Assembly (NCBI GenBank): GCA_016287985.1
Contig: JAEEXX010000005.1
Span: 1-37,791 of the forward strand
DNA length: 37,791 nucleotides
DNA from: Candidatus Gastranaerophilales bacterium
GTDB lineage: Bacteria; Cyanobacteriota; Vampirovibrionia; Gastranaerophilales; Gastranaerophilaceae
Direction: 5' to 3'
In this document: in pieces, positions 1 to 18,221 of the stretch
How the letters are laid out: each line of letters opens with the position of its first letter
How positions within the stretch are numbered: position 1 is the first letter of the stretch
Made by a program: the position numbers and the translations under genes
Notes under the pieces: generated by a model
Told to the model about the DNA's origin: nothing
Databases searched by the model: none
Seen by the model: only the letters and a program-made list of their open reading frames with translations

Positions 1-163
1 GAGAAGCCACCAAATCCTTGCCGGCACGAACTTTCTGTTTCTGGACATAATCGGAAGCTTTTCTTACCCACTGAGCAAATTGCTCTGTCACAAACTCCCT
101 GTCCGAAGTTGAGACGGAAAGAACAAATTTACCTTTTGTTACTTTGAATGAATATACAGACAT
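1..163 (-). CDS. Small protein, unrecognised family (3' part outside window)
   Basis: The reading frame starts at an ATG at 163 and stays open for 54 codons to the window edge, so the C-terminus is missing. It starts MSVYSFKVTKGKFVLSVSTS and continues with DREFVTEQFAQWVRKASDYV. A weak AAAGG lies about 12 nt upstream. It follows the 40-aa ORF at 196-318 by 32 nt on the same strand and is probably co-transcribed with it. The two proteins align without gaps over about 33 residues (Y..K..KG, then EFV.EQ and W), so they look like tandem diverged copies of one small domain. No function is recognised. The start is reasonably secure because no better start lies just upstream in frame. Confidence 0.6.
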   Translation of the reverse strand, partial: MSVYSFKVTKGKFVLSVSTSDREFVTEQFAQWVRKASDYVQKQKVRAGKDLVAS

Positions 164-195
164 TTGTACAACGATACCTTTCTTAACGGGATAAA

Positions 196-318
196 CTATT
201 TATCCTGCAAAAGTTCATCTCTCCATTTGTTGAGCTGTTCTTCAACAAACTCTAAATCGTCAGATTTGAGTTCTATTTCTATATCACCTTTTTTCATTTT
301 TAAAACGTATTCGTGCAT
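196..318 (-). CDS. 40-aa protein, paralogue of the adjacent ORF
   Basis: Short ORF with a very strong ribosome binding site (TAGGAGGGGCAT before the ATG), which supports real translation despite its size. The product is acidic and probably helical (starts MHEYVLKMKKGDIEIELKSD, ends with EFVEEQLNKWRDELLQDK). It is cytosolic by composition, with no signal peptide or membrane segment. It shares the Y..K..KG...EFV.EQ..W pattern with the protein encoded just downstream (1-163). No function is recognised. The divergent gene at 461 is transcribed the other way. Confidence 0.6.
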   Translation of the reverse strand: MHEYVLKMKKGDIEIELKSDDLEFVEEQLNKWRDELLQDK

Positions 319-360
319 ATGCCCCTCCTAACATAATGAGTTTAACATGAAACATGACAA

Positions 361-389
361 TTGTAAATTTATTTTATGTGTAGTATAAT
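361..389 (+). promoter_or_regulatory. Sigma70-type promoter for the matrixin-like gene
   Basis: TTGTAA (361-366), a 17-nt spacer and a perfect TATAAT (384-389) lie about 70 nt before the start codon at 461. Spacing and boxes match the vegetative consensus. Confidence 0.65.
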
Positions 390-460
390 TAGCGCAAAAA
401 TAAAATTTACATGTTTTATAGTATTTGTTGGAAAGTTACGAAAATGAGGTTATAAACAAA

Positions 461-1678
461 ATGAAAAAATTAGTTATTGGTACGTTCCTAATTGCTTTTG
501 GGGCTTTCGCATTAAATAGTGTACAATTAGCTCCGCAAGAACAACATTTCGGGTTACAAAAAACAGCAGCAATCACACTCGGATATGACAGATCAATGAG
601 TGAAAAAACAATAAAAGCTGCAGTTATTGACAGTTACTACAGACAAGTTTGCAAAAATGGACAAATCGTAAGGTGGAATAAGTCTTACATGCCTTTATCT
701 GTATACATTCAAGATTCAAAAGATGTTCCCGAATTTTACAGAGAGGTCGTTATGAATGCATATCTGGCTTGGCAAAGAGCAAGTGAAGGTATTGTGAGAT
801 TTCAGTTTGTAGAAGATCCTTCTCAAGCTGATATGAAGTGTTACTTCAAAAACGGTAATCCATCCGATGCCATAGGTGTACATGAATTTGCCGTAAACGG
901 AAACAGAATAACAAGTTCGACAATAACTTTCAGTAAAACTGACAAAAAAGGACACAGCCATGATTCCAAGCAGTTGTACTCTTCTGCACTACAGGAAGTA
1001 GGTCATTCAATCGGTCTGACCGGAAACAGTACGAGTATTTATGACGTTATGTATCCTATCGGAACAAAATTTAACACGGAAATTACAACAAGAGATTTAA
1101 AAACGTTGGCTTTAGTATACGCAACTATTCCTGATGCTACAAATATACCGCTTACACAGAGCGAAAAATCAATGTTGTTTACATCATCAGAAATTCTTTC
1201 TACATTGAATGTTCCTGTTGACGATAACACTAATTTGAATGAATATGTAGGGACAGATGTTGCTTCTCATTTGGCTTTGGCTGAGCAATACAGAAAACGT
1301 GCACAGTATGATAAGGCTGCACATGAGTACCAAATTGTAGCACAAACAAAATCCGACAACAGAAGCCGTTCGGAAGTATTCTATGAAATAGCAGTTATGT
1401 ATTTGGATGCAGAAATGTATGATGAAGCAAAAAGCGCTGCAGAAATAGCTTGGAATACGGATGAAAACGATTTAACAATCACTTTACCGCCGTTGCTTAA
1501 CTATTACATGAAACGTTCAAATACTGCAGTTCAGCAATTGGAAGAACTTTTAAAGAGCAACCCTTATAATAAATATGCTTACAAGCTTCTGTGCCAAATA
1601 TACAGAGATAAACACCACGAAAATCTTTTGAACTCAACAATCAGAAGATACGGAAAAACAGCGGGTGAAGTAGAATAA
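461..1678 (+). CDS. Exported matrixin-like protein with TPR-like C-terminus, zinc site degenerate
   Basis: 405 aa from the ATG at 461; an in-frame TTG at 425 is less likely because GAGG sits about 11 nt before 461 and the next residues (MKKLVIGTFLIAFGAFA) form a signal peptide. Residues about 35-210 match the matrixin/peptidase M10 fold, ending in LQEVGHSIGLTGNS and a Met-turn DVMYP. Families of this type normally read HExxHxxGxxH or HExxHxxGxxGH. Here the first His is Q178 and the last is N189, with only E179 and H182 left. Each change is one base from a His codon (CAG, AAC). Residues about 270-395 are helical and TPR-like. It probably acts outside the cytoplasm as a binding rather than proteolytic protein; that is inference. 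A strong terminator follows. Confidence 0.75.
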   Translation: MKKLVIGTFLIAFGAFALNSVQLAPQEQHFGLQKTAAITLGYDRSMSEKTIKAAVIDSYYRQVCKNGQIVRWNKSYMPLSVYIQDSKDVPEFYREVVMNAYLAWQRASEGIVRFQFVEDPSQADMKCYFKNGNPSDAIGVHEFAVNGNRITSSTITFSKTDKKGHSHDSKQLYSSALQEVGHSIGLTGNSTSIYDVMYPIGTKFNTEITTRDLKTLALVYATIPDATNIPLTQSEKSMLFTSSEILSTLNVPVDDNTNLNEYVGTDVASHLALAEQYRKRAQYDKAAHEYQIVAQTKSDNRSRSEVFYEIAVMYLDAEMYDEAKSAAEIAWNTDENDLTITLPPLLNYYMKRSNTAVQQLEELLKSNPYNKYAYKLLCQIYRDKHHENLLNSTIRRYGKTAGEVE

Positions 1679-16050: not shown

Positions 16051-16833
16051 CTAGTTCTCAAAAAATAGGTTCATAAATTCAATATCATCATAATCAATAT
16101 ATGCGGTTTGCATAAGGTTTCTTCCTGTTCTAATTGTAACTTCGTTGACTTGATTCTTCTTGATAAGTGAATGCGGTACTTTAATTCTTTGTCCGTCGCC
16201 GTTTATCTGAATTTCAGAAATTTTGTTTCCGTTAAAAAATATTTCGGGAGGGGATGAAAAAGCGTTAGCAATTTTATTTTGTCCGATTGAACGTGCCATT
16301 TCTGTGTCTATACCTATAATAGAGCCGATAACCAAAAATATAGGTTTATTAAATTTGAGGTTTTTTAAGATAAATCTTTTTGTATAAAAAGGACCAATTG
16401 CCTGCATACGAAATTCTTCGGCATTTGCGGATAAATCGGAATAGTTGTTATCTCCTAAGTGATACATGCTTGAATCTACAACTAAATCATGGGCATTAGA
16501 TTTTTCAATACCGATAACGATAGGCGCAGAGAATGTTTGGTCTGTTACGGTAACTGAATAAGGTTTATAATTTTCCTTTTGGATTGACATGATTGACGTT
16601 CCGTCTATATAAGTATCAAGCTCAAAATATCCGTCGGAATCGGTTTTTGTGGAATATTGTTGTTTTGGAAGTGTTATTTTTGCTCCGCCGACACCGCCAC
16701 CGGTAGCTTTATCCACAATTCTGCTTGATTTACCCTTGCCTTCTGCACTTACGCCGCCTTCAAAAGTTGATGCAGCATATGTTTGCAAAGACAAAAAGAA
16801 TATTAAAATTATTATTGATAAAAATTTTCTCAT
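16051..16833 (-). CDS. Exported protein with carboxypeptidase-regulatory-like (Ig-fold) domain
   Basis: 260 aa with a signal peptide (MRKFLSIIILIFFLSLQTYA) and probable cleavage after YAA. Residues about 35-105 fit the CarboxypepD_reg-like fold: the repeated pattern GGGVGGAKITL, TKTDSDGYFEL, YKPYSVTV is typical. The second half (about 115-260) is beta-rich and includes FILKNLKFNKPIFLVIGSII and a late strand-rich stretch that may bind ligands; no catalytic motif is seen. Probably periplasmic or surface-attached. There is no strong SD before the ATG at 16833. A TATAAT box about 28 nt upstream is palindromic (ATTATAAT) and could serve both strands. Confidence 0.65.
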   Translation of the reverse strand: MRKFLSIIILIFFLSLQTYAASTFEGGVSAEGKGKSSRIVDKATGGGVGGAKITLPKQQYSTKTDSDGYFELDTYIDGTSIMSIQKENYKPYSVTVTDQTFSAPIVIGIEKSNAHDLVVDSSMYHLGDNNYSDLSANAEEFRMQAIGPFYTKRFILKNLKFNKPIFLVIGSIIGIDTEMARSIGQNKIANAFSSPPEIFFNGNKISEIQINGDGQRIKVPHSLIKKNQVNEVTIRTGRNLMQTAYIDYDDIEFMNLFFEN

Positions 16834-16863
16834 AACGATATTATTCTATTTTATGGGTCAAAT

Positions 16864-16869
16864 TATAAT
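16864..16869 (+). promoter_or_regulatory. -10 box for a plus-strand transcript through the tRNA-Leu leader
   Basis: TATAAT with TTATTC 17 nt upstream at 16841-16846. A tiny ORF of 9 codons (16901-16930, MKVKIGIEI) with a good AAGGAT site follows. If used, the tRNA precursor would carry a leader of over 200 nt. The box also reads as a -10 on the minus strand. Confidence 0.35.
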
Positions 16870-16964
16870 TAGCTTTGGTATTGTTTATAAGGATAATTAA
16901 ATGAAAGTAAAAATAGGAATTGAAATTTGAATATTTTTCTGATTTAATTGTTTTACGTTGAAAA

Positions 16965-16985
16965 TAGAACATGCCGATGTGATGG
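16965..16985 (+). repeat. Direct 21-nt copy of the tRNA-Leu 5' end and its flank
   Basis: TAGAACATGCCGATGTGATGG occurs here and again at 17095-17115, where it runs into the real tRNA-Leu. Similarity ends after GATGG, so this is not a second tRNA. Confidence 0.85.
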
Positions 16986-17052
16986 CTGACCGAAGCGGGT
17001 AGGCTAAGCAATATATGGAGAATATGAATTTTCCAAAGCGGAGAAATATAGA

Positions 17053-17070
17053 CTACCGATTCCATCACAT
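17053..17070 (-). repeat. Inverted 18-nt copy of the tRNA-Leu 5' half
   Basis: The complement reads ATGTGATGGAATCGGTAG, matching tRNA positions 17107-17124 (ATGTGATGGAATTGGTAG) at 17 of 18 bases. In RNA the one difference is a G-U pair, so all 18 bases could pair with the tRNA. The last 10 bases could instead pair with the direct copy at 16976-16985. Confidence 0.8.
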
Positions 17071-17102
17071 GTGGTAAAAATTTGAAAGTTGAATTAGAAC
17101 AT

Positions 17103-17186
17103 GCCGATGTGATGGAATTGGTAGACGTGCCAGACTCAAAATCTGGTGTAGGCAACTACGTGTCGGTTCGACCCCGACCATCGGCA
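17103..17186 (+). tRNA. tRNA-Leu (anticodon CAA)
   Basis: 84 nt with a 7-bp acceptor (GCCGATG with CATCGGC) and discriminator A; CCA is not encoded. The anticodon arm CCAGA-CTCAAAA-TCTGG gives anticodon CAA, which reads UUG. The long variable arm TGTAG-GCAA-CTACG is the class II hallmark, and the T arm GTCGG-TTCGACC-CCGAC is standard. It decodes leucine. A terminator follows at once. The leader upstream is unusual because it holds partial copies of the tRNA 5' half. Confidence 0.95.
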
Positions 17187-17194
17187 AATAAAAG

Positions 17195-17219
17195 GAGCGA
17201 TGAGAAGTCGCTCTTTTTT
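17195..17219 (+). terminator. Rho-independent terminator of tRNA-Leu
   Basis: GAGCGA (17195-17200) pairs with TCGCTC (17208-17213), then a run of T. Confidence 0.8.
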
Positions 17220-17321
17220 GTTGTAATATTAACTTTTGTAACAATTTTTATTTTTTCTCTAAAGTTTTGACTCCAAACTGCCGTTATACATGCAAAAGGG
17301 ATAACCATAAGGAGTTTAAAA

Positions 17322-18221
17322 ATGTCACTAGATAAAATTAGCGCAGACGATATTAAAACACAAATTCACAATATCTTTAAATCGCATGATTATAACAGAA
17401 AAGGGCGAATTGATATCTTAGATGAAATTTCTGACCTCGGTAAAGAGTTGATTAGTAATTTAAATTCTGCCGATAAAACTATATATGATATACAAGGTGA
17501 AATGGATGATGTTATTGAAGAATATGACAAAATAATGCAGGAGATTGACAAAGCTCGAGATGAGTTTACTGATTCAAATACGAGTATAGAACAGATAGAT
17601 GCACGTATTGAGGAATTAGAAACCAAGGGTGAAGAAAATCTGACCGATTCAGAAAAACGTGAACTCGAGTGGCTTAGAGGACAAAGAGAAAACTACCAGG
17701 CTACTGCTGAGAACGCCAGTGGACAGGTTGATTCCTTAACCGGTACTTCTCAATCGACAATAGCAAAACTTGACGGATTTAATGAACAACTCGGTGATAT
17801 AGCAGATGCAACAGAAGAATATCACTCAGCAGGTGAACAAATTCAATCCTCTGCCAAACAGTATGGAAGAGAAGCTGTAATAAATGGAGATGATTTAAGA
17901 AAGCAACGAACTTCGTGGTTTAATTTTTTCAGTATAGGAAATGGTAACGGTAGTAAATATGACAAATATGTAAAAGCATCCGGTTATGAAATGGTTGGAG
18001 ATACCGTGAATAATACACAATATACATACTATGACGGTGTTGAACACGAGTTTGTAGCTGAGTATGATGTAATGGAGCAAAAAGGTGGCAATAAAATACA
18101 GGGTGCATTAAGAAAATCTACTGCAAAAGCTTGGTCATACGGTCAGACTATTCAGGATGCAAGTAACATAGTAAACGAAAAAGCTGAAGAAACTAAGAAA
18201 AAAGAAGACGAAGAGAAGTAA
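17322..18221 (+). CDS. Coiled-coil lineage-type protein
   Basis: 299 aa with a strong AAGGAG site. Residues about 1-40 are polar with one EF-hand-like loop (DYNRKGRIDILDE) whose fifth ligand is Lys, so calcium binding is doubtful. Residues about 45-175 are a long charged helix with heptad spacing (EQIDARIEELETKGEENL), a likely coiled coil. Residues about 195-260 are Gly/Tyr/Asn-rich beta-like sequence (SIGNGNGSKYDKYVKASGYE), and the tail is Lys/Glu-rich (EETKKKEDEEK). No signal peptide or membrane segment. No known family is recognised. The upstream region ACAATTTTTA-N11-AAGTTTT is only a partial match to the shared motif. A very stable terminator follows. Confidence 0.7.
   Translation: MSLDKISADDIKTQIHNIFKSHDYNRKGRIDILDEISDLGKELISNLNSADKTIYDIQGEMDDVIEEYDKIMQEIDKARDEFTDSNTSIEQIDARIEELETKGEENLTDSEKRELEWLRGQRENYQATAENASGQVDSLTGTSQSTIAKLDGFNEQLGDIADATEEYHSAGEQIQSSAKQYGREAVINGDDLRKQRTSWFNFFSIGNGNGSKYDKYVKASGYEMVGDTVNNTQYTYYDGVEHEFVAEYDVMEQKGGNKIQGALRKSTAKAWSYGQTIQDASNIVNEKAEETKKKEDEEK

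Follow-up and report, generated by a model that had tools for sequence, protein, structure and literature searches.

Why is the gene for tRNA-Leu(CAA) in a Candidatus Gastranaerophilales bacterium preceded by a direct and an inverted copy of its own 5' half? The window, the whole stretch of 37,791 nucleotides analysed here (contig JAEEXX010000005.1, assembly GCA_016287985.1), had been read in two ways in the initial annotation: as the layout of a two-state RNA that could hide or free the tRNA 5' half, or as the scar of a duplication or of a mobile hairpin. The explanation favoured here, with a probability of about 0.60, is that both copies belong to a recurrently gained or lost repeat that resembles RtT, is tailored to the tRNA beside it and represents the 5'-side (D-arm) counterpart of RtT. 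The weakness of the folding control, and the fact that several of the own-genome matches are training sequences, slightly reduced this estimate. Sequence comparison establishes the anatomy of the unit, its specificity for its own tRNA, its recurrent presence and absence, its tandem copies and the covarying cores of its sister units.

Structure of the locus

The locus has the following parts.
16051-16833, minus strand: divergent gene of 260 amino acids, the anchor of synteny for locating the same locus in relatives; its product has a CarboxypepD_reg-like domain slightly under the Pfam cut-off
16920-16925, plus strand: TTGAAA, the -35 box of the promoter that recurs before this tRNA; relatives match it whether or not they have a unit
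16943-16948, plus strand: -10 box TTTAAT after a 17-nt spacer, from the promoter pattern
16962-16985, plus strand: direct copy, the left edge of the unit, from repeat comparison
16986-17052, plus strand: core of the unit, short type (R1 match at 16973-17068, 24.0 bits, E 2.6e-4)
17053-17070, plus strand: inverted copy, antisense of tRNA nucleotides 5-22 (17107-17124), retained in relatives
17071-17102, plus strand: spacer and second leader copy (17092-17102), with no promoter-like match
17103-17186, plus strand: tRNA-Leu(CAA), from tRNA calls
17190-17218, plus strand: hairpin with a T run in the predicted fold, the likely terminator of the tRNA transcript, reported by a consensus terminator scan in the minus-strand reading only

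The tRNA had been placed correctly and could be identified as tRNA-Leu(CAA). It is intact and complete without splicing, and a tRNA intron with the direct copy as 5' exon is ruled out since the tRNA is whole without removal of an insert. The 21-nt direct copy described earlier was found again as the exact part of a 24-nt copy with one mismatch to 17092-17115, at an offset of 130 nt. It consists of 11 nt of leader and tRNA nucleotides 1-13 (16973-16985). The longest exact direct repeat, 21 nt, lies above all 60 dinucleotide shuffles of 16600-17500, which reached at most 13 nt. The inverted copy matches the tRNA over 18 nt with one mismatch, a G-U pair in RNA, as had been reported. The longest exact inverted repeat is 12 nt, against a mean of 11.5 and a maximum of 20 in 60 such shuffles of the same region, and therefore length alone gives the inverted copy no significance. 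It is significant because it is identifiable as the tRNA 5' half and is retained in other species. Of 15 aligned units from other species, 14 have all 14 antisense positions paired with the tRNA, and the remaining one has 13 of 14. Pairing with the antisense's own arm inside the unit is lower, at 7-13 of 14 positions. This difference counts against the favoured explanation, since a purely neutral repeat would not have to keep its pairing with the tRNA above that within the unit. Conservation is 99% in the antisense and 63% in the middle of the unit.

The direct and inverted copies are parts of one unit of about 130 nt between the recurring tRNA promoter (16920-16948) and tRNA-Leu(CAA). Because the core sits between a duplicated leader with tRNA 5' end and the intact tRNA, the insertion spares both promoter and tRNA. 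When the stretch 16930-17230 was compared with its own genome, the sole strong match was to itself, the next having an E value of at least 0.5.

The unit in related genomes

Part of the window's stretch was matched in 59 of the 65 genomes of the genus that were searched, and the loci considered are the best 80 of 140, reached via the divergent neighbour gene. Many relatives have an empty site consisting of promoter, short leader and tRNA, and others have one unit or two nearly identical units in tandem at tRNA-Leu(CAA). A pattern-based call divided 55 distinct upstream sequences into 21 filled and 34 empty. Two full tandem units are present in L066 and L060, and in L036, L015 and L153 a full unit is accompanied by one that is cut or truncated; the window has one unit only. 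Contig breaks at the tRNA could suggest long arrays, but identical tRNAs of co-occurring species account for the breaks equally well, and no array length is derived from them.

A tree of the neighbour protein with 28 syntenic rows (10 filled and 18 empty) requires six changes in the presence of the unit, at least four of them forced by supported branches. Filled and empty rows cluster slightly more than shuffled labels (17 and 26 of 500 shuffles were as low), and gain and loss of the unit are indistinguishable on this tree. The initial annotation had named absence of the copies in close relatives as evidence against its reading, and they are absent from all ten sister rows of the window. The short type found in the window, whose copy and antisense span 95-98 nt in a total of six sequences, the window's among them, occurs elsewhere in L077, L083 and L094, which are rows of another clade, and in L011 and L013, loci with no neighbour gene found beside the tRNA.

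The model built from the Leu-CAA units (R1) matched 14 of 383 genomes, all in one genus of 41, in a search with stricter filters that missed the window's own short unit, which other R1 searches found weakly. Confinement to one genus makes the Leu-CAA core genus-restricted, unlike the two cores described below (R2 and R3). Covariation among the Leu-CAA units of relatives, a check suggested in the initial annotation, did not appear: with RNAalifold 0 of 12 and 0 of 13 pairs were compensatory, which weighs against the favoured explanation. The tRNA 5' half and the antisense are nearly invariant in the genus, leaving too little variation for covariation between the two.

In another genome (L024, G007:C98) the distance from the end of a tyrosine integrase gene (37-864, plus strand; PF00589, 1.1e-35) to tRNA-Leu(CAA) downstream of it is 83 nt, and the strict promoter pattern finds nothing upstream of the tRNA there. 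Judged from this gene order, the 5' side of tRNA-Leu(CAA) may be an integration site in that genome.

Copies of tRNA ends at other tRNA genes

Two genomes, the window's own (G000) and a second one (G014), were scanned for tRNA genes flanked by copies of their own ends, with thresholds that were fixed only after a first look at both. In G000, 4 of 35 tRNA loci have a copy of their own 5' end upstream, 7 have a copy of their own 3' end downstream and 10 have either, the window's own tRNA-Leu(CAA) locus being left out of the count. The corresponding numbers for the 42 loci of G014 are 7, 11 and 15. As a control, the ends of other tRNAs were looked for in these flanks and found in 6/1124, 4/1142, 6/1694 and 3/1708 tests (0.2-0.5% per test). 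In one control genome from another family of the same phylum, where 30 of 43 tRNA loci were fetched and gave 32 tRNAs, own-end copies were found at 0 of 32 (5') and 0 of 32 (3'). The window locus is, on these counts, one case of a genome-wide pattern of units fitted to their own tRNA. The 25 of 35 (G000) and 27 of 42 (G014) tRNA loci with no own-end copy speak against the favoured explanation.

The units at other tRNAs are diverse. Upstream of tRNA-Gly(TCC) in G000 there are two tandem units of about 153 nt with a third, larger type of core (L180, G000:C125), and a similar core precedes tRNA-Arg(CCT) in G014 (L231). The unit at tRNA-Gly(TCC) in G014 (L215) has a different core from L180, with an inverted copy of the D-arm. 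R1 did not match this Gly-TCC unit, though its core resembles the Leu-CAA core by eye. In G000, upstream repeats ending in GCAATAATCCAAGA at tRNA-Leu(TAG) and tRNA-Lys(CTT) (L203 and L181) look like another unit type. One tRNA of the same genome (L184, G000:C150) was given the anticodon tta, a stop, by ARAGORN; judged from the loop it is more likely a tRNA-Lys(UUU) read one base off.

Structured cores of the sister units

Downstream units contain a hairpin core of about 95 nt at the position of the T-loop (T-core), and upstream units contain, among others, a core of about 45 nt at the position of the D-loop (D-core). Covariation was counted on structures derived from the same alignments. In the T-core, 13 of 23 pairs are changed on both sides, with a score of 0.521 against 0.165 for shuffled and at most 0.116 for slid alignments. 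The D-core has 7 of 9 such pairs and a score of 0.494 against 0.194 for shuffled alignments, and its pair types are no more numerous than in shuffles (171 of 500 as high).

Both cores are widespread in the window's family. The T-core model (R2) matched 232 of 288 family genomes in 37 of 41 genera, and the D-core model (R3) matched 254 of 288 in 35 of 41 genera; 10-21 candidates were scored per genome, which makes the copy numbers lower bounds. In the phylum R2 matched 149 of 386 genomes, all but three from the same family and those three from the same order.

A set of 29 R2 loci was inspected, consisting of the best matches given loci (L254 excluded, and the training sequence L291 included). 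A same-strand tRNA lies upstream within 400 nt in 22 of these, and at 21 of the 22 the core is directly followed by a copy of 10-19 nt of that tRNA's own 3' end. The tRNAs concerned are Asp, His, Arg, Gly, Val, Ile, Asn, Met and Leu. The other seven loci have no tRNA in reach, some of them lying at contig ends. Among 30 R3 loci, including the training sequence L363, 14 have a same-strand tRNA downstream, and a copy of its own nucleotides 1-11 to 1-19 ends 1 nt before the core; nine of the 14 are tRNA-Met of one genus. Three R3 loci, on the strand opposite to tRNA-Glu and downstream of this gene, have a 10-14 nt copy of its 3' end, two are near an opposite-strand tRNA only, and 11 have no tRNA within 400 nt, four of these still carrying a tRNA-Met 5' end. 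The cores were found in both orientations.

In G000, 8 of 12 R2 matches and 10 of 14 R3 matches are within 300 nt of a tRNA, and five of the eight and four of the ten are training sequences. Some of the cores away from tRNAs sit near contig ends. A further point against the favoured explanation is that some cores are found away from tRNA genes, one of them perhaps in a 16S rRNA leader, and going by their positions the cores may not be limited to tRNA genes. Three such sites in G000 can be described. One, in a 16S rRNA gene leader, is a weak T-core match (E 0.003; L265, G000:C109:6838-6947). At the second (L273, G000:C133:2334-2384) an orphan unit carries the 3' end of tRNA-Lys and a copy resembling a terminator, and the Rfam scan of this locus shows no tRNA. 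A T-core beside a gene that looks like secA (L264, G000:C102:6360-6427) is flanked by an imperfect direct repeat of about 37 nt, and this site could be informative on how units insert.

The window unit had no R2 or R3 match at E <= 0.01. Since RF00391 likewise found no match in it (see below), its kinship with these families rests on shared layout.

Relation to RtT and other known systems

RtT was originally identified as an RNA that tRNA operons release; in Actinobacillus, RtT RNAs lie upstream of Asn and Lys tRNA genes and are visible on Northern blots (PMC4986893). A tandem GA motif is described in RtT RNA (PMC7657543, PMC8250186), and a GA/GA step is present in most rows of the T-core alignment. 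The tyrT region of Escherichia coli gave four RF00391 matches (3.5e-29 to 4.9e-28), and its units consist of an antisense of the T-stem, a T-stem strand with TTCGA, a GA-rich hairpin and a T-stem strand with the acceptor end of tRNA-Tyr. By eye, the downstream units have the same order of parts as RtT (RF00391; rttR in the tyrT operon of E. coli). Like the units described here, RtT adjoins a tRNA, carries that tRNA's own end and forms tandem copies. It differs in that the window unit lies upstream and copies the 5' end and D-arm, as a mirror-image version, in that it belongs to another phylum, and in that the units here occur at many kinds of tRNA. Downstream sister units in G000 carry their tRNA's own 3' end; the window unit carries the 5' end instead.

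Direct matches between these families are few. RF00391 had no match in the window, none at E up to 10 in 16840-17240, and none over the curated 45 bits in four genomes of the genus including the window's. The sole match in those four (G051, 24.8 bits, E 0.0115) falls on an R2 unit, and the 3' end of this unit is similar to the tRNA-Tyr of L207. Nothing was found with RF00391 at E up to 1 in L288, L291 and L194, and E. coli alone was matched among 14 control genomes. In the opposite direction, the top score of R2 in the tyrT region of E. coli was 8.3 bits (E 0.28). The lack of a cross-match between RF00391 and R2 at usable scores, and of any match of R2, R3 or RF00391 to the window unit, argues against the favoured explanation. 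Rfam searches of the units gave nothing at gathering score besides tRNA, a single 16S rRNA and the RtT control from E. coli, all other matches at relaxed E values being below the cut-off. In titles and abstract openings, with most subscription journals outside the coverage, no description of such units in these bacteria was found.

T-box riboswitches are RNAs that sense or pair with tRNA, and the window unit could likewise pair with a tRNA. It differs in preceding the tRNA itself and not a synthetase or amino-acid gene, and the T-box model had no match in the window, nor at E up to 10 in 16840-17240. REP/RAYT-type palindromic repeats are short structured intergenic repeats with many copies, a trait shared with the present units. 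The latter differ in their link to tRNA genes, whose own sequence they contain.

Transcription and folding

The initial annotation had placed a promoter with its -10 box at 16864, followed by an ORF of nine codons. The string TATAAT is present there, but it is absent from the list of the consensus promoter scan and is not common to relatives, and the opening string of the ORF was found in one of 55 distinct upstream sequences, the window's own. The recurring promoter is TTGAAA-17-TTTAAT at 16920-16948. With a strict pattern, 15 of 21 filled loci have it ahead of the first unit, and 21 of 34 empty loci have it ahead of the tRNA. From this pattern the transcript is expected to start near 16955, 5' of the unit. 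A separate tRNA promoter between unit and tRNA was also looked for, and 0 of 20 spacers between the last unit and the tRNA (the window and 19 other filled loci) matched the strict pattern. With the promoter pattern matched 5' of the first unit and no match to it in the spacer, the unit most likely lies within the tRNA transcript.

By analogy with RtT, the unit is probably trimmed off by tRNA processing after being transcribed with the tRNA. RNase P would cut before the copy and again before the true tRNA, and an RNA of about 130 nt would be released, as stated for RtT. The antisense arm could pair inside the unit or with the emerging tRNA. Spread between tRNA genes may have occurred by recombination at similar D- and T-loops, which is a guess.

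Of 18 filled precursors chosen for folding, 17 were foldable, and 13 empty precursors were compared with them. The native acceptor stem had a mean pair probability of 0.00-0.05 in the predicted ensemble of all 17 filled loci, and their minimum-energy folds lay 2.5-21.5 kcal/mol below the best native-constrained fold. The stem was retained in 12 of 13 empty precursors (0.51-1.00), the exception being L021 (0.00, 16.7 kcal/mol off). The folds printed for two loci, the window's and L130, have the tRNA 5' half paired with the inverted copy and the 3' acceptor strand with the direct copy. The folding program is poor for tRNA-Leu(CAA), predicting the D-stem at 0.00-0.07 and the T-arm at 0.00-0.33 in empty loci also, and it disregards co-transcriptional order, modification and RNase P. 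An effect of the unit on tRNA-Leu(CAA) maturation is plausible in these models because the predicted folds lose the acceptor stem and the antisense stays complementary to the tRNA. If the yield of tRNA-Leu(CAA) is affected at all, a side effect is more probable than regulation by a switch.

Alternative explanations

The first alternative is a regulatory two-state leader, in which the nascent tRNA 5' half would be bound by the antisense and the 3' acceptor strand by the direct copy. Native tRNA would require the antisense to be retained within the unit, and a signal would choose the state. The layout proposed in the initial annotation exists on paper, and the unformed acceptor stem predicted in filled but not in most empty loci, together with the strong conservation of the antisense relative to the middle of the unit, fits such a leader. 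It is nevertheless unlikely. The unit comes and goes, being absent from the window's sister rows and, by the pattern-based call, from 34 of 55 upstream sequences; it has no Rfam match and the Leu-CAA unit no covariation; the sister unit at tRNA-Leu(TAG) has by eye a self-hairpin instead of a tRNA antisense; and the predictions come from a program weak for this tRNA, which also left the empty locus L021 with no acceptor stem. The wider pattern disfavours a dedicated tRNA-Leu switch. Duplication or a mobile hairpin, the alternative that had been offered alongside it, is favoured because own-end copies occur at many tRNAs and on both flanks and the cores are shared in both orientations. The repeats reported earlier are real, the earlier observation as a whole is partly confirmed, and its interpretation is partly supported.

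Rather improbable is the footprint of site-specific integration, in which the direct repeat would be an att pair left by a tyrosine-recombinase element targeting tRNA-Leu(CAA). Sites of the att kind typically show repeats at the end of a tRNA, a direct repeat of the tRNA end at a tRNA gene is common to these elements and the present units, and the Phage_integrase gene before tRNA-Leu(CAA) in G007 suggests integrase use. However, the units of about 130-190 nt have no room for an integrase, and the window has no integrase gene between its repeats, the 130 nt from copy to copy being too short. Many different tRNAs are involved, each with its own end, where one integrase would need one target, and the units share structured, covarying cores.

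A tandem duplication of the tRNA that has decayed, has persisted by chance and has been homogenised through recombination would account for the near identity of tandem units within a genome and for the longer decayed tRNA-Met copy upstream of tRNA-Met in L192, but it is more improbable still, as covarying cores common to different tRNAs already weaken it and the copies stop near the same loops (by eye and from the core edges).

Implications

Under the favoured explanation of an RtT-like repeat tailored to its tRNA, the window unit is, as far as sequence can tell, one of many in its own family of gut bacteria and not a one-off switch. One wider proposal, tentative and doubtful, joins two statements: that the units form a genome-wide layer of tRNA-specific control, D- and T-arm mimics, often with an antisense, tuning the maturation of their own tRNA, and that the RtT of enterobacteria is one known branch of a far larger class. 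The tRNA 5' and 3' ends are often non-unique in these genomes, which matters for the mapping of tRNA reads and for att sites. With the same anatomy at many tRNAs, on both flanks and in another phylum, the enterobacterial oddity RtT becomes a class, and this class offers natural variants, empty sites and tandem expansions for comparison.
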